Assembly (NCBI RefSeq): GCF_014836935.1
Contig: NZ_JACSPW010000001.1
Location: forward strand, 372,001-436,000
DNA: 64,000 nucleotides
Origin: Solibacillus merdavium
GTDB taxonomy: Bacteria; Bacillota; Bacilli; Bacillales_A; Planococcaceae
Direction of reading: 5' to 3'
Shown here: in pieces, positions 17,023-62,425 of the stretch
Layout of the letters: every line of letters begins with the position of its first letter
Position numbering within the stretch: position 1 is the first letter of the stretch
Notes under the pieces: generated by a model
Told to the model about the DNA's origin: nothing
Databases searched by the model: none
The model's input: the letters and a program-made list of their open reading frames with translations, nothing else
Made by a program: the position numbers and the translations under genes

Positions 17023-18762
<1,740 letters not shown>

Positions 18763-18866: not shown

Positions 18867-19056
18867 AATAAGGGTGAAATTTCCGCTTATTTGATAAATT
18901 AATTGAAATTCAGCCAAAATAGAGGTAAAAATTCCTCTTATCTATGCTGAATAACATGAAAGACACTGATTTTTCAATGGATAACCGGAAAAACTACCCT
19001 TATTTACCTCTAAATGATGCTTATTTTGCAAATAACGGTAAAAACTCCGCTTATTT
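18867..19056 (+). repeat. Four-palindrome 190-bp element, copy A
   Basis: Four imperfect palindromes of about 26 bp at 18867-18892, 18917-18943, 18979-19005 and 19030-19056. Each has the form AATA(A/G)NGG(T)A-centre-CCNCTTATT, with a centre such as GAAATTTC. Centre-to-centre spacing is about 50, 62 and 51 bases. Copies at 29386-29575 and, inverted, at 38196-38385 have the same length and spacing and also share spacer words (for example GATTTTTC before the third unit). It fills most of the 372-base proS-polC gap. Confidence 0.8.
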
Positions 19057-19134: not shown

Positions 19135-22100
19135 TTGAAACAATTGTCAAAACAGGAAGGAAGACAAAAATTCCTACTATTAATCCAACAACTTGAATTA
19201 ACTGATGATGTCTACATGTCCTTTTTTGAAAATGGCACACTCGAACGAGTAACCGTCCATAAAAAGAAAAGAATTTGGCATTTTAAAATTAAAATAGAAA
19301 ATATTTTGCCATTCCAAGTGTATCAATTACTTCGTATGCGTCTAGCAGAGAAGTTTTCTCATATAGCCAATGTCCTATTAACAGTAGAATCCCACAATCC
19401 TGTAGTGAATGAGCAGCATATTCTTGACTATTGGCAAGTGGCAATTGAACAAATGGGTGACATGTCGCCATTATTGCGCGAAAACCTCATGAAACAAACA
19501 CCACGATGGACAGGTCATAAGCTTGTAGTGACATCGATGCTGGAAGTGGAATATTTATCATTAAAATCAAAGTATACGGAGAAAATTGCAGAATCCTATA
19601 AAACATTTGGTTTTCCACATATTCCGTTAGAATTCCAACTTATCGAAGAGTCGGATGAGTTCATCGCACAGCAGGAAGCTTTTTACGAGCAGCGTAAAGA
19701 AGAGGAAGAACGTTTGTCAAAACAGGCAATGGCCGATTTTGCAGCACGTGAAAAAGAGAAGGCGAATAATCCGGGTGCTGCGATGCAAGGAGATGCTCCA
19801 TTCCAAATTGGTGCACTTATAAAAAATCCAGAGCCAGTTGAAATCCGTACAGTGTTGGAAGAAGAGCGTTCAATTGTATTGGAAGGCTTTATTTTTGCTT
19901 GTGAAGTGAAGGAACTGAGAAGTGGCCGTTCATTATTGGAGCTTAAAATTTCCGACTACACCGATTCTCTACTCATAAAAATGTTCTCAAACGGTGACGA
20001 AGATGTTGTGAAAATGAAGCAAATAAGTAAAGGAATGTGGGTTCGTGTACGCGGCTCAATCCAACTTGATACATTTGCCCGTGATTTAGTTATGATGGTG
20101 AAGGATATTAATGAAATCAAGCATGAACCTCGTAAAGATCATGCTCCAGAAGGTGAAAAACGAGTTGAGCTTCATTTGCATACGCCGATGAGCCAGATGG
20201 ATGCTATGACGTCCGTTGATAAATTAGTTGCCCAAGCAGCAAAATGGGGGCATCCCGCAATTGCGATAACCGATCATGCAGTCGTGCAGGCATTCCCTGA
20301 TGCATATGCTGCAGGGAAGAAAAATGGCATAAAGGTTATTTATGGTGTGGAAGCAAACTTAGTGGATGACGGGAAGCCAATTGTGTATGATCCGATTGAT
20401 ATTGATTTGGAGGAAGCTACGTACGTCGTATTTGACGTAGAGACAACAGGTTTTTCAAATGTATATGATACGATTATCGAGCTAGCGGCTGTAAAAATAA
20501 AAAATGGCCAAGTTATAGATACGTTTGAACGTTTTTCAAATCCCCATCGCAAACTAACAGCAAAAATCATTGAACTTACACATATTACAGATGATATGCT
20601 CGTCAATGCACCAGAGCTTAATGATGTAATCCGTGAATTCCATGACTTTATTGGCGACGGGGTTGTCGTTGCCCACAATGCAGCGTTCGATTTAGGTTTC
20701 TTATATGTTGCCTACAAAAACGCAGGCATTGAAGTAAGGCATCCAGGTATTGATACGGTCGAGCTTTCCCGACTTGTAAATCCCGGACAAAAATCGCATA
20801 GCTTAAAAACATTAACGAAAAAATATAATATTGAATTAACACAGCATCACCGGGCAATTTACGATACGGAAGCTACCGGTGAACTATTCCTGCATTTACT
20901 CAAACAGTCCGCCGATTTAGGTATAAAAAACCTGATTGAAATGAATGACCATGTCGGCGGCGAAGAAGGATATAAGCAGGCACGCCCAAGTCACTGTACA
21001 GTATTGGCAGTGGATGATGCTGGCTTGAAAAATCTTTTCAAATTAATTTCGATATCGCACACGGAAACATTTTATCGAGTACCACGTATTCGCCGTTCGG
21101 ATCTGCAGCGGTTACGCCAAGGTTTAATTGTCGGTTCAGGCTGTTCGAATGGTGAGTTGTTTGAAACAATGATGAATAAAACACAGGAAGAAGCCGAACG
21201 CATTGCAAAGTTTTATGATTATTTGGAAGTCATGCCAAAACCTGTTTACTCTCAATTGGTTGATGGGGGTACGGTACATGATGAATGGGCTTTGGAGGAT
21301 ATTATTCGCCGTATCGTAAAACTTGGTAAAAAGTTGAACCTGCCTGTTGTTGCAACAGGAAATGTCCATTACCTGCATGAAACAGATGCAAAGTTCCGCC
21401 AAATTCTAGTCGGTTCGATGGGTGGTGCAAATCCACTGAATCGTAACCCTTTGCCAAAAGTCCACTTCCGTACGACAAATGAAATGTTGAAGGAATTCGA
21501 CTTTTTAGGACCAGATTTAGCGAAAGAAGTTGTTGTAACGAATACACAGCTAGTTGCAAATATGATTGGTGATGTAAAACCGATTAAAGATGACTTGTAT
21601 ACACCGAAAATTGAAGGTTCTGATGACGAAGTAACGAATTTAACATACGAAATGGCACATCTGATTTACGGGGAAAATTTACCGGAAATTGTACAAGCTC
21701 GAATCGATAAAGAGCTAAAATCCATTTTAGGACATGGATTTGGCGTTATTTATTTAATCTCGGCAAAGCTTGTAAAAAAATCATTGGCAGATGGATACTT
21801 AGTAGGTTCACGTGGTTCGGTCGGATCATCACTCGTTGCCACATTTATGGAAATTACTGAAGTGAATCCGTTGCCTCCGCATTATGTCTGCCCTAATTGT
21901 AAACATTCGGAGTTTATCGCAGATGGATCGGTTGCATCCGGTTATGACTTACCGAACAAAGAATGTCCAGAGTGTGGGGCACAGTATAAAAAAGACGGTC
22001 AGGATATCCCGTTCGAAACCTTCCTTGGATTTAAGGGAGATAAAGTACCCGACATCGATTTGAACTTCTCGGGAGAATATCAGCCGCAAGCCCATAATTA

Positions 22101-23469
22101 CACGAAGGTGCTTTTCGGTGAAGAATATGTATTCCGTGCTGGAACAATAGGGACAGTTGCGGAAAAGACAGCATATGGCTATGTAAAAGGTTATGGAAGC
22201 GATAATGGTATAACGTACCGCAATGCCGAAGTAGATCGCTTAGTTCAAGGATGTACAGGCGTAAAACGTACAACAGGGCAACACCCAGGCGGAATCATTG
22301 TTGTACCGGATTATATGGATATATATGATTTCTCTCCAGTACAGTTCCCTGCAGATGCGCAAGACTCTGAATGGAAAACAACTCACTTTGACTTCCATTC
22401 GATTCATGATAATATTTTAAAACTCGATATACTTGGTCACGATGATCCAACTGTAATTCGTATGTTACAGGATTTATCAGGAATTGATCCAAAGACAATT
22501 CCAACAGATGACCCAATTGTCATGAAAATTTTTAGTTCGACAGAGACACTTGGTGTGACAGATAAACAAATAGGTGCAAAAACAGGTACGCTTGGCATTC
22601 CTGAGTTTGGTACAAAGTTTGTTCGTCAAATGCTGGAAGAAACAAAACCAACGACATTTAGTGAACTTGTACAAATTTCCGGACTTTCTCATGGAACGGA
22701 CGTTTGGTTAGGAAATGCAGCCGAGCTTATTAAAGACGGTACTTGTGTATTAAAAGAAGTAATTGGCTGTCGTGACGATATTATGGTGTATTTAATCTAT
22801 CAGGATTTAGAGCCATCATTTGCCTTTAAAATTATGGAATCTGTACGTAAAGGAAAAGGCTTAACAGAAGAAATGGAAGCTGAAATGCGCGCGAAAAAAG
22901 TACCGGAATGGTATATCGATTCATGTAAAAAGATAAAATACATGTTCCCGAAAGCCCATGCCGCAGCCTATGTTTTAATGGCGGTACGTATCGCATGGTT
23001 TAAAGTCCACCATCCAATACTTTATTATGCAGCCTACTTTACAGTGCGTGCATCTGATTTTGATTTAATTGCGATGACACAGGGTTCTGTCATGATTCGT
23101 AAAAAAATTGATGAAATTAATATGAAGGGGCTCGATGCAGCTCCGAAAGAAAAAAGTTTGTTAACGGTTATGGAAATTGCGCTTGAAATGTGTGAACGAG
23201 GCATGAGCTTCAAGAAAGTGGATTTATACCGTTCACATGCGAGTGAGTTTATAATTGAAGGGAATTCGTTGATTCCACCGTTTGATGCGATACCTGGACT
23301 TGGTACAAACGTAGCAAAACAAATCGTAGAAGCGCGAAAAAACGGTGAATTCCTATCAAAAGAGGATTTACAGCAACGTGGTCGTGTATCGAAAACTTTA
23401 ATTGAGTACATGGATGAATTAGGCTGCCTTGAAGGTATGCCGGATGCCAATCAGCTTTCACTATTTTAA
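19135..23469 (+). CDS. polC: DNA polymerase III alpha subunit, Gram-positive PolC type
   Basis: Replicative polymerase of Bacillota, 1444 aa. An OB-fold region precedes a PHP domain starting near residue 343 ([14 protein letters not shown]). The DEDDh proofreading exonuclease, inserted in the PHP domain, begins FDVETTGF at residue 433. A four-cysteine zinc site (CPNC ... CPEC) lies near 919, and the polymerase palm follows with [12 protein letters not shown] and an [11 protein letters not shown] stretch. The start is uncertain: TTG 19135 aligns with the B. subtilis N-terminus (M-x-QLS), but TTG 19144 is better spaced from GAAAGGG. Confidence 0.97.
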
Positions 23470-23553: not shown

Positions 23554-23676
23554 GATAGTTCGCCAGCAAAAGAGTGGGTTTTCCCGCTCTTTTCTGTTGT
23601 TTACACAACTATTTATCTTCATTCAGCAAGCGTTTTAAAACGCTTGCTGAATGAAGATAAACCACTGGCGAATATC
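23554..23676. repeat. Large palindromic element E1 after polC
   Basis: A perfect 50-bp palindrome at 23612-23661 with arms beginning TTTATCTTCATTCAGC and a central TTTTAAAA. Outer arms GATAGTTCGCCAG (23554-23566) and CTGGCGAATATC (23665-23676) are also complementary, and the polC terminator hairpin sits between the left outer and inner arms. Related elements are at 31967-32051 and 44112-44170. It occupies much of the 302-base polC-rimP gap. Confidence 0.8.
23568..23593 (+). terminator. Rho-independent terminator after polC
   Basis: Eleven-pair stem AAAAGAGTGGG / CCCGCTCTTTT (one G-T pair), TTTT loop. It lies inside the larger palindromic element. Confidence 0.82.
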
Positions 23677-26034: not shown

Positions 26035-28542
26035 ATGAGCAAAGTAAGAGTTCATGAATATGCGAAAAAGGTAAATAAAACAAGTAAGGAAGTTATTGAG
26101 AAGCTTGCAAGTTTCAATCTGCCAGTGAAAAATCACATGGCGGTAATTGATGAACAGGCGGTATCAAAACTAAATTCTGTCTTTAAGCAAGCAGCAGAAC
26201 CAACGAAAGATTCTCCTGCAAAACCATCTGTCAAAGCTGTAAATGCATCGCCAAAACCTGGTGAGCAAGGGCAGAGAAACGCACAACAGAATCTAAAGCA
26301 GGATCGTCCACAATCTGCTTCAACTAACCAACAACCGAACAAACCAAGAAACGCCCAAGGGCAAACAAGATCGCAACAACCGAATAAACCGGCAAACGCC
26401 CAAGGGCAAACAAGATCGCAACAACCGAATAAACCGGCAAATGCCCAAGGGCAAACAAGATCACAACAACCGAACAAACCAGCAAATGCCCAAGGGCAAA
26501 CAAGACCGCAACAACCGAACAAATCAACAAATGCCCAAGGGCAAACAATATCGCAACAAGGCGAAAAACAAAGAAATGAAAAAGGTAACCAAAATCGAAA
26601 TATGACTCAAAATACTAATAACAACCGCAAAGGCGGAACGAACCAAAATAATAGTAATAATAAAGGCGGTAACACGCAGAATAAGGGTGGCTACCAACAA
26701 CGTAGAAAGCCAGGAATTAATGGCGGTAAACGTCGTACGCATCGCCCAGCACCGCAGCCAATGGTACAAAAAGAATTACCGGAAAAAATCACGTTCTACG
26801 AAAGCTTGTCAGTTGCAGAACTTGCAAAAAAATTACACCGTGAGCCATCGGAAATTATTAAAAAATTATTCATGCTTGGTGTAATGGCAACAATTAACCA
26901 AGAGTTAGACAAAGATGCGATTGAGCTTATTTGTGCTGACTACGGTGTAGAAGTGGAAGAAGAAATTCGTATCGACAAAACAGATTTAGATACGTACTTC
27001 GATGATTCAATCGTAGAAGTGGATGAAAATGCTTTAGAAGAGCGTCCACCAGTTGTAACAATCATGGGTCACGTTGACCACGGTAAAACAACTTTACTTG
27101 ACTCAATTCGTAACACAAAAGTAACTGCTGGCGAAGCAGGTGGTATCACTCAACATATCGGTGCTTACCAAGTTACTGAAAATGGCAAGAAAATTACGTT
27201 CTTAGATACACCAGGACACGCAGCATTCACTACAATGCGTGCGCGCGGAGCATCTATAACAGACATCGCGATTATCGTTGTAGCAGCTGATGACGGTGTA
27301 ATGCCTCAAACAGTAGAAGCAATCAACCATGCGAAAGCAGCCGAAGTACCAATTATCGTAGCTGTAAACAAAATGGATAAACCTTCAGCAAACCCTGACC
27401 GCGTTCAGCAAGAATTAACAGAGCATGGCTTAGTTCCTGAAGCATGGGGTGGAGAGACAGTCTTTGTTCCAATTTCAGCACTAAAAGGTGAAGGAATCGA
27501 TGAATTATTAGAAATGATTCTTTTAACTGCAGAAGTTGGGGAACTAAAAGCGAATCCGACTCGTGCTGCTATCGGTTCAGTAATCGAAGCACAATTAGAC
27601 AAAGGTCGCGGTGCTGTTGCAACATTATTAGTTCAAGATGGTTCATTACGTGTTGGTGACCCAATCGTAGTTGGTCACGCATATGGTCGTGTACGTGCTA
27701 TGGTAAACGATTTAGGTCGTCGTATTAAAACTGCTGGCCCATCAACTCCAGTAGAAATTACTGGTCTAAATGAAGTACCACAAGCGGGTGACCGTTTCGT
27801 TGTATTCCAAGACGAAAAAACAGCTCGTCAAGTTGGTGAGTCACGTTCAATGACTGCGATTCAAGCACAGCGTTCTGAAAAGCAACGTGTAACACTTGAT
27901 AACTTATTTGAACAAATGAGCCAAGGCGAGATGAAAGAATTAAACTTAATCGTAAAAGCAGACGTACAAGGTACAGTGGAAGCAATGGCTTCTTCATTAA
28001 TGAAAATTGATGTTGAAGGTGTTAACGTAAAAATCATCCACACAGGTGCGGGTGCTATTACAGAATCAGATATTTCACTTGCTGCTGCATCAAACGCTAT
28101 TGTTATCGGATTTAACGTACGTCCTGATACGAACGCTAAGCGTGCTGCGGATGAAGAAGGTGTAGATATTCGTCAACACCGTATCATCTATAAAGTAATC
28201 GAAGAAATCGAACAAGCGATGAAAGGGATGCTTGATCCAGAATACGAAGAAAAAATCGTTGGTCAAGCGGAAGTTCGTCAAACAATCAAAGTCTCTAAAG
28301 TCGGTACAATTGCAGGTTCATACGTTATTGAAGGTAAAATGGTACGCGATGCGGGTGTACGTGTAATCCGTGAAAACGTTGTTGTTTTTGAAGGCGAATT
28401 AGATTCATTAAAACGCTTTAAAGATGACGCAAAAGAAGTAGCAAAAGGCTATGAGTGTGGTATCACAGTTAAAAACTACAATGACATTAAAGAAGGCGAC
28501 ATTATCGAAGCCTTCGTAATGGAAGAGATTGTTCGTAAGTAA
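26035..28542 (+). CDS. infB: Translation initiation factor IF-2
   Basis: GTPase that brings initiator tRNA to the 30S subunit. It has 835 residues: an N-terminal IF2N domain ([17 protein letters not shown]), a long Gln/Asn/Lys-rich linker including a 15-residue tandem repeat at residues 102-175, a second IF2N domain (from about 250), then the G domain with [11 protein letters not shown] near 345, DTPGHAAF and NKMDKP. IF2 C-terminal domains follow. The stop overlaps the next gene start. The linker repeat is the only unusual part. Confidence 0.97.
26338..26559 (+). repeat. 45-bp tandem repeats inside infB
   Basis: About five 45-base units encoding [15 protein letters not shown] in the IF-2 linker. 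The middle units are nearly identical at the DNA level, indicating recent unit duplication. The change in protein length is in frame (15 residues per unit). Confidence 0.9.
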
Positions 28543-29385: not shown

Positions 29386-29575
29386 AATTTAAGGAGAAAT
29401 TCCGCTTATTTGGAAAATCGAGTGAAAAAAGGTCAAAATAGCGGTAGGAATTTCCTCTATTCACCTAAAAACCATTTAAAAATATGATTTTTCGATGAAT
29501 AAGGGAAATATCTACCCTTATTTCTCTCAAAATAAGACCTTATCTACAAATAACAGTAAAACTTACCGTTATTTT
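29386..29575 (+). repeat. Four-palindrome 190-bp element, copy B
   Basis: Palindromic units at 29386-29411, 29436-29461, 29498-29523 and 29548-29575; the third, with halves AATAAGGGAAA and TACCCTTATTT, is one of the most regular. Unit spacing equals that of copy A, and both copies are on the same strand. With the rbfA terminator and the small remnant upstream it accounts for most of the 407-base rbfA-truB gap; no separate promoter was recognised. Confidence 0.8.
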
Positions 29576-38195: not shown

Positions 38196-38385
38196 AAATA
38201 AGTGGAAATTTTACCCTTATTTTAAAAATTACTTATTTTTATAGGAAGATAAGGGAATAGATTTCCGTTATCCTTCGAAAAATTAATTTTTTTCATTGAT
38301 ATTTACTCAATAAGGGAAATTTCTACCGCTATTTCAGCTGTTTTTAATGAGATTTATCAAATAAGGGAAATTCTTACCTCTATTT
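38196..38385 (-). repeat. Four-palindrome 190-bp element, copy C (inverted)
   Basis: Units at 38196-38222, 38248-38273, 38309-38334 and 38359-38385. The spacer sequences match copies A and B only when C is reverse-complemented (for example TTATTTGATAAAT after the first unit and AATTTTTCG before the third). It lies between the divergent GntR operon and ymxH and fills most of this 400-base gap. Confidence 0.8.
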
Positions 38386-52786: not shown

Positions 52787-53000
52787 TGTGCGGAGTGGAG
52801 GGGCAGACTCCTTGGGGATTAAGCATGCGCGGAAAATCCAGGTTGCTCCTGCGGTTACTAGTCGCAAAGCTTTATTCAAAGCTTTGGAGCCATGCCCTCA
52901 GGGTAAAAGGAACGAATGCTAAGAGCGTCACATCGTGTGACAACGCATTCGTGACCAACATCGTGTTGGCTTCCCGGAACGCAGTACAACGAACGTATTA
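52787..53000. repeat. GC-rich structured intergenic repeat (type 2)
   Basis: It begins GTGCGGAGTGGAGGGGCAGA and continues CTCCTTGGGGATTAAGC, related to the element at 16.7 kb. It contains perfect hairpins GTCACA-TCG-TGTGAC and CCAACA-TCG-TGTTGG and nested CGAATGC/GCATTCG arms, plus a doubled CAAAGCTTT. The 571-base nupQ-ymfF gap also holds the nupQ terminator and a TATAAT at 53097; nothing else was seen. A 71-codon open frame across it is not credible as a gene. Confidence 0.7.
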
Positions 53001-62048: not shown

Positions 62049-62106
62049 ATTTGTTTGTTTAGGGCAGGCAGGTTAGCTAGTAGCAAATGGCAATTATATA
62101 AGAGCA

Positions 62107-62261
62107 GTGACGAATATGTTGCTTGAAGTGGCGAATAAATTTCAAAGTGGCGATTAAATATAAGAGAGTGACGAATAAGTTACTGGAAGTGGCGAATACG
62201 CGCTGGGATTTGACGAATAAAATACAGGGAGTGACGAATAACCGGATGAATTTGGCGAATA
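62107..62261 (+). repeat. Eight-unit 21-bp periodic array of GTGRCGAATAA
   Basis: Units start at 62107, 62128, 62147, 62168, 62189, 62210, 62231 and 62252: spacing 21, 19, then 21 throughout. Core forms are GTGACGAATAA and GTGGCGAATAA (TTGACGAATAA and TTGGCGAATAT in two late units); a lone extra unit GTGTCGAATAA is at 62347. Spacers are more variable, with a recurring ...CTTGAA / ..CTGGAA end. It occupies the middle of the 560-base recA-rny gap, whose other contents are the recA terminator and the rny promoter. Confidence 0.82.
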
Positions 62262-62425
62262 TATGTTTAGGGAAGTTCTTTAAGCGATACTTTCTTCATA
62301 AAAATGTGAGAGAAAGTTGAGGAATGTGTCTATAAAAACTATATAAGTGTCGAATAAAGTTATCTTTCCGGCAAAAAAGTCTCTCAAATCAATAAATATA
62401 AAAAAACCTTTAAACATGGCTATTC

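Follow-up and report, generated by a model that had tools for sequence, protein, structure and literature searches.

What is the 190-bp element of four spaced palindromes that lies between proS and polC in Solibacillus merdavium, and what acts on it? The window, a 64,000-nt stretch of this genome, carries the element (copy A, 18867-19056) as four imperfect palindromes of 25-27 bp, starting at 18867, 18918, 18980 and 19031. An initial annotation had recognised the four palindromes but gave their pitch as 50/62/51 bp; the measured pitch is 51/62/51. It also claimed two further copies in the window, and both were located, one on each strand. Each of the three copies has an ortholog in the sister species Solibacillus faecavium A46 (G005).

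17044-18762, forward strand: proS (prolyl-tRNA synthetase), from the ORF list and identified from sequence; upstream neighbour of copy A
18867-19056, forward strand: array copy A; dyads 18867-18892, 18918-18943, 18980-19005 and 19031-19056; 31 of 32 core bases intact
19135-23469, forward strand: polC (DNA polymerase III alpha, PolC type), from the ORF list and identified from sequence; downstream of copy A
29386-29574, forward strand: array copy B; dyad starts 29386, 29437, 29498 and 29549; pitch 51/61/51
38196-38385, reverse strand: array copy C; dyad starts 38197, 38248, 38309 and 38360; pitch 51/61/51; 32 of 32 core bases intact

Alignment of the copies uncovered a repeated half-site, AAATAASGGnA, present eight times per element. 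Within the 27-bp unit T4, A5, G9 and A11 are near invariant across all eight half-sites, and positions 6-8 and 10 are variable. Arrays were scored by the half-site core TAnnnGnA, which specifies eight bases per dyad (T2, A3, G7, A9 and their complements), at least 7 of which were required; a strict 9-of-11 palindrome detector misses many of the arrays that this core motif detects. The window contains exactly three such chains of four dyads, while 20 shuffled windows (1.28 Mb) contained none. The host genome (G000; 3.78 Mb, 56 contigs) possesses 64 unique array places, 56 of them full length. The claim of a defined element rather than chance DNA, which a lack of further genomic copies was to have overturned, is therefore upheld. 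The single-dyad pattern AATANNNGNANNNNNTNCNNNTATT occurs 214 times in the host genome and its reversed control not once; a tighter single-dyad pattern gave no matches there. The element ends at its outer dyads, and the flanks are unrelated except in tandem arrays and in one subfamily (ATTGAATTGCGTAATGAGAT...TAGGAGGGCACTGAAAAACT). In the host genome, one array subfamily (C33_69862, C18_8909, C52_108616 and other loci) is embedded in a longer repeat common to its members (TTCCGGGCGGCGTGGCTCCAAAGCTTTTGTAG... and ...AAGGCACTTTCTATCTACTAAGGCGTTTTGCCC).

The arrays are widespread in Bacilli and their spacing is quantised. About 85,000 named prokaryote genomes were scanned for pairs of dyads, with the gap between them allowed to vary over 12-42 bp. 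This returned at least 108 stretches, and among the matches listed all are found in Bacilli: Neobacillus, Rossellomorea, Mesobacillus, Cytobacillus, Paenibacillus, Cohnella, Fontibacillus, Sporolactobacillus, Planomicrobium, Ureibacillus, Lysinibacillus, Evansella, Solibacillus and others. In 108 loci among the matches listed, 312 pairs of full-core dyads lie 30-90 bp apart, and their distances are 50-52 bp (210 pairs), 60-62 bp (99) or 72 bp (3), with no other spacing among those matches. The pitch is thus conserved in relatives, as expected of an element that did not arise by coincidence. These distances correspond to 5, 6 and 7 helical turns, which places the dyads on one side of the helix. 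Five-dyad arrays (51/51/51/51 or 51/51/61/51) and the 72-bp step also keep to whole helical turns; such variants are found in Cohnella luojiensis (L103), Fontibacillus panacisegetis (L104, L120) and S. faecavium (L439, G005:C2). Three-dyad arrays are conserved in both Solibacillus species. A full set of four dimers is therefore not strictly required, and toxicity of partial arrays, considered as a cause of the conservation, is weakened as an explanation by these intact three-dyad arrays.

A candidate partner was found by clustering ORFs near arrays in other species and was afterwards sought in the host genome. One protein family of about 220 residues adjoins the arrays in Neobacillus mesonae (arrays on both sides) and Bacillus sp. 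B1-b2. It also abuts arrays in two genomes of the class, and relatives lie near arrays in two Cohnella species. The host genome contains exactly one gene of the family, outside the window (G000:C53:66677-67333, reverse strand) and 8 bp from three tandem arrays. The same neighbourhood, gene then array, is present in the sister species, G281, G177, G055 and G167, and across genera of several families gene and array stand between a few and about 90 bp apart. Of 399 Bacilli genomes, 19 have arrays and 14 of these carry the gene, compared with 32 of the other 380 (P=8e-11); when arrays were counted by pattern instead, the figures were 7 of 9 against 39 of 390 (P=5e-6). Within the genus, where 16 genomes were searched, both many-array genomes possess the gene and none of the 14 others does. 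Four of the 19 array genomes (G127, G158, G218, G254) lack a detectable gene, and G368 retains only remnants with stops, beside an array. The arrays of G368, G254 and G218 still look intact, which would require recent loss or gaps in the assemblies.

Among Paenibacillaceae-like genomes the pattern is more scattered. These carry up to nine nuclease genes each, several of which have their own array type downstream (e.g. TAACTGCAC dyads, 51/62/51, L241). Of 38 genes examined by a sequence-agnostic symmetry test, 13 have an array (z of at least 4) on their downstream side and 2 on their upstream side. With only 13 of 38 detected downstream, adjacency is uneven in the divergent Paenibacillaceae paralogs. 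Carriage by plasmids or phages was rejected because plasmids rarely have the gene and no phage in the collection matched: one match lies on a 2.7-Mb Paenibacillus replicon and one on a viral contig. Two conserved terminator-like leaders, possibly attenuators, are found just upstream of Paenibacillaceae-type nuclease genes. One type (GTGAAGCACACGCC...GGCGTTTTT) occurs at L235-L237, L248, L250 and L253, the other (GACGAAGAACGTCC...GGGCGTTTTTT) at L238, L240, L249 and L251; neither has an Rfam match.

The partner protein is predicted to be a nuclease of Vsr/EDxHD fold joined to a MarR-like winged helix. Residues E55, E57, D69, E82, H89 and R104 are among those invariant in 24 sequences. The AlphaFold2 model (pLDDT 84) has a catalytic domain whose best match is I-Bth0305I (3r3p_A; VIA Z 11.2, rmsd 2.3, 97 of 97 residues), and its C-terminus matches MarR-type winged helices (Z about 10). 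Foldseek alone returned weak E-values only, so the nuclease fold is a well-supported prediction and not a demonstration. A Pfam scan placed the protein with DUF559/MTES_1575 nuclease and winged-helix families; for DUF559 (PF04480) the score of 20.2 bits is just below the gathering cut-off of 20.6, as of a related family. The same scan found no Y1 transposase, and an Rfam search of nine gene loci found no group I intron.

Comparison of the two Solibacillus species shows what is conserved at each site. Of 15 copies (contig C33 and the window), 13 have a collinear ortholog in S. faecavium A46. The remaining two, both on C33, sit in replaced intergenic DNA. Their insertion boundary is consequently unreadable, and they were rejected as clean empty sites between the species. 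Over 23 full orthologous pairs the core diverged at 8 of 736 positions (1.1%), against 372 of 1890 (19.7%) in the spacers of the same pairs and 18.6% in the adjacent 60-bp flanks. The core is 18 times better conserved than the spacers (P ~1e-46). A length of 189-191 bp was kept in both copies of 22 of the 23 pairs, while the flanks are full of gaps. Both base changes and spacing are therefore constrained at each site, and each array copy is under purifying selection in place.

The core score is 31.2-31.9 of 32 in four gene-bearing genomes; in the gene-less G158 it is 28.6 of 32 and the pitch is scattered, and in G368, with its gene remnants, the core is still intact. Gene-less congeners contain 0-7 single dyads genome-wide, against 182-214. 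At their proS-polC site, three of them have one palindrome exactly between the array ends (degenerate in one), one has half a palindrome, and two have none. The single palindrome may be a collapsed array or an ancestral target, and the two are indistinguishable. Insertion into a pre-existing palindrome was therefore not adopted, the same pattern being expected if an array collapsed to one palindrome.

Taken together, the 190-bp element is probably a docking array for one chromosomally encoded nuclease-winged-helix protein, whose gene lies beside arrays. The architecture, the quantised spacing, the adjacency and co-occurrence of the gene, selection in place, and arrays that are absent or eroded in gene-less genomes are the observations that support this. 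The nuclease would bind the arrays through its winged helix, each palindrome being an operator that takes up one dimer. Steps of 5, 6 and 5 helical turns separate the operators, so that four bound dimers would share one DNA face and could assemble into a single closed complex. Such an assembly may restrain or position the nuclease on its own chromosome, or direct its action. Most likely the arrays restrain or position the nuclease on self DNA, a putative role; loss of array bases would then be harmful only while the nuclease is present. A wider claim goes further: that the class Bacilli shares a two-component genome system. Its dedicated nuclease would occupy dozens of helically phased host arrays that are maintained by selection and form a self-marking, restraint or maintenance device, not a transposon. 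As one joint claim this is tentative, somewhat short of an even chance.

Several other origins of the arrays were weighed. Every unit is palindromic, as it would be in a transcribed structured RNA, terminator or other hairpin element, and covariation is slightly above that of shuffles (0.099 vs 0.083). However, the two arms of a palindrome are no more complementary to each other than non-partner arms are, and in each dyad 19-28 of 34 copies leave the inner variable stem position unpaired, so an operator for a protein dimer fits better than a hairpin. Among 49 copies with both neighbours in view, none lies inside an ORF of at least 100 codons, and they occupy co-directional (18 on the same strand, 14 on the opposite), divergent (9) and convergent (8) gaps alike; this mix of gene orientations led to the rejection of a general terminator or promoter role. 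Rfam has no match at the arrays. The absence of arm covariation above background, the unpaired stems, the random orientation and the empty Rfam search make a hairpin or small RNA highly improbable, and the small RNAs suggested in the initial annotation are not borne out, since arm pairing is not maintained. An ordinary MITE derived from a DDE transposon, which would also be short, non-coding, multicopy and intergenic, is just as hard to credit: apart from the dyads no terminal inverted repeats were noticed, no transposase family is enriched beside the copies, and the copies are selected in place. The array ends coincide with the outer dyads, the flanks share no duplication by eye, and no target duplication was found at the array-less proS-polC sites. 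Another possibility is that the arrays bind a separate host nucleoid or regulatory protein and the nuclease gene is a passenger beside them. Phased dyads, intergenic placement and in-place selection do resemble chromosome-organising sites, and some array genomes have no gene. Nevertheless this is unlikely, given that gene and array lie within a few to about 90 bp of each other in several families, that they co-occur (P=8e-11), and that gene-less congeners are so poor in dyads (0-7 vs 182-214).

The main rival to docking is a selfish replicator of the REPIN/RAYT kind, in which the nuclease would copy or move the arrays and conservation would reflect copying, not host function. Much of the distribution agrees with it: one gene per genome beside the repeat, many dispersed intergenic copies, a patchy occurrence, and few or eroded copies where the gene is missing. 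Copies also cluster around the gene: of the 20 independent ones in the complete G281 genome, 5 lie within 110 kb of it (0.94 expected, P=0.002), and host contig C53 holds 9 copies (3.2 expected, P=0.0045). Tandem copies occur at C53:65988-66668 and C54:26850-27465. Together with the tandem copies, this enrichment suggests a degree of local copying, and array mobility is weakly supported. The word "mobile" in the initial annotation agrees with the clustering and tandem duplicates but not with the 13 of 15 copies that stand in the same place in the sister species. Neither a new insertion event nor a target duplication was seen among the copies examined. Recent transposition in G281 was rejected because nine near-identical copies there are hitchhiking inside a larger repeat, several hundred bp long. 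Copying from a master would also reset the spacers and cannot give conservation of the core alone, which between orthologs is 18-fold. A replicator therefore explains the distribution of the arrays, not the base-by-base conservation of orthologous copies, and on balance it is an unlikely account, if one with a real chance. The nine G281 units (L281-L289), each with an array inside, are possibly a separate mobile element.

As the initial annotation supposed, no described system with this layout was found in Rfam or in the open-access literature searched, which leaves subscription papers and bioRxiv preprints largely outside. The sites of Noc, SlmA and MatP are tens of palindromes across the chromosome, kept by selection, but each is a lone site bound by a core-biology protein that is not a nuclease. 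The arrays resemble them in being tens of chromosome-wide palindromic sites under selection, and differ in consisting of four dyads, in being patchy even within one genus and in being paired with a nuclease. REP/BIME/REPIN sequences with their RAYT (TnpA-REP) resemble the arrays in that a single-copy nuclease-type gene stands next to its cognate palindromic repeat, that the repeat is scattered between genes in tens to hundreds of copies, and that it persists for long. As with RAYT, described as single-copy and vertically inherited (PMC8049555), there is one gene per genome flanked by repeats, although Paenibacillaceae genomes carry several. Unlike in REP/RAYT, the enzyme is not an HUH (Y1) tyrosine transposase but combines a winged helix with a nuclease domain of predicted EDxHD/Vsr fold, the repeat is four phased dyads over 190 bp, and copies are conserved base by base in place instead of forming a cloud around a master sequence. 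No GTAG or CGTC tag is conserved at the palindrome foot in the alignment and flanks of 40-44 copies.

The closest solved structure to the predicted catalytic domain, 3r3p_A, belongs to the homing endonuclease I-Bth0305I, with which the partner shares an EDxHD/Vsr-like catalytic fold. The DNA target on which I-Bth0305I forms a dimer is almost 60 bp long (PMC3943268). The partner differs from it in having a MarR-like winged helix instead of an extended DNA-binding region, and from EDxHD homing endonucleases in general by the lack of a group I intron at nine loci, the lack of a match in the phage collection, and the linkage to scattered arrays instead of a single homing site. Among type IV restriction enzymes, winged-helix fusion endonucleases of the DpnI type likewise combine an N-terminal nuclease with a C-terminal winged helix, and they are described as reading N6-methyladenine (PMC11037411, PMC4117772). 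The present family has instead, as its conserved partner, a specific phased dyad array in the host's own chromosome. Bacterial MITEs such as bcr1 (from Bacilli), RUP and NEMIS (PMC3733652) are also short, multicopy and intergenic. The arrays differ from them in that neither terminal-repeat transposon anatomy nor, by eye, a target duplication was noticed, and in that the conserved feature is the dyad core with its helical spacing.

If the docking interpretation is correct, many Bacilli carry an unrecognised chromosome-wide nuclease docking system that can be read from sequence. It would offer a test of whether an array code can tie a nuclease to its host genome, and of how a repeat population is held under selection copy by copy. 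Cooperative assembly on DNA could be gauged against the arrays as an exact natural ruler (5, 6, 5 turns), and paralogs whose palindromes differ would provide a ready specificity series.

Other features were detected in the window. Intergenic positions 62106-62262 contain about 8 copies of (A)GTGACGAATA / GTGGCGAATA at a pitch of about 21 bp (two helical turns). These are direct repeats and not dyads, and constitute a second helically phased array. Five tandem 45-bp units at 26284-26585, 71-93% alike and in codon register, are probably a protein-gene repeat. A perfect 25-bp inverted repeat without spacer at 23612-23661, just after polC, is likely a terminator, and a Bacillaceae-1 RNA (RF01690, 74.5 bits) is found at 52903-52969.
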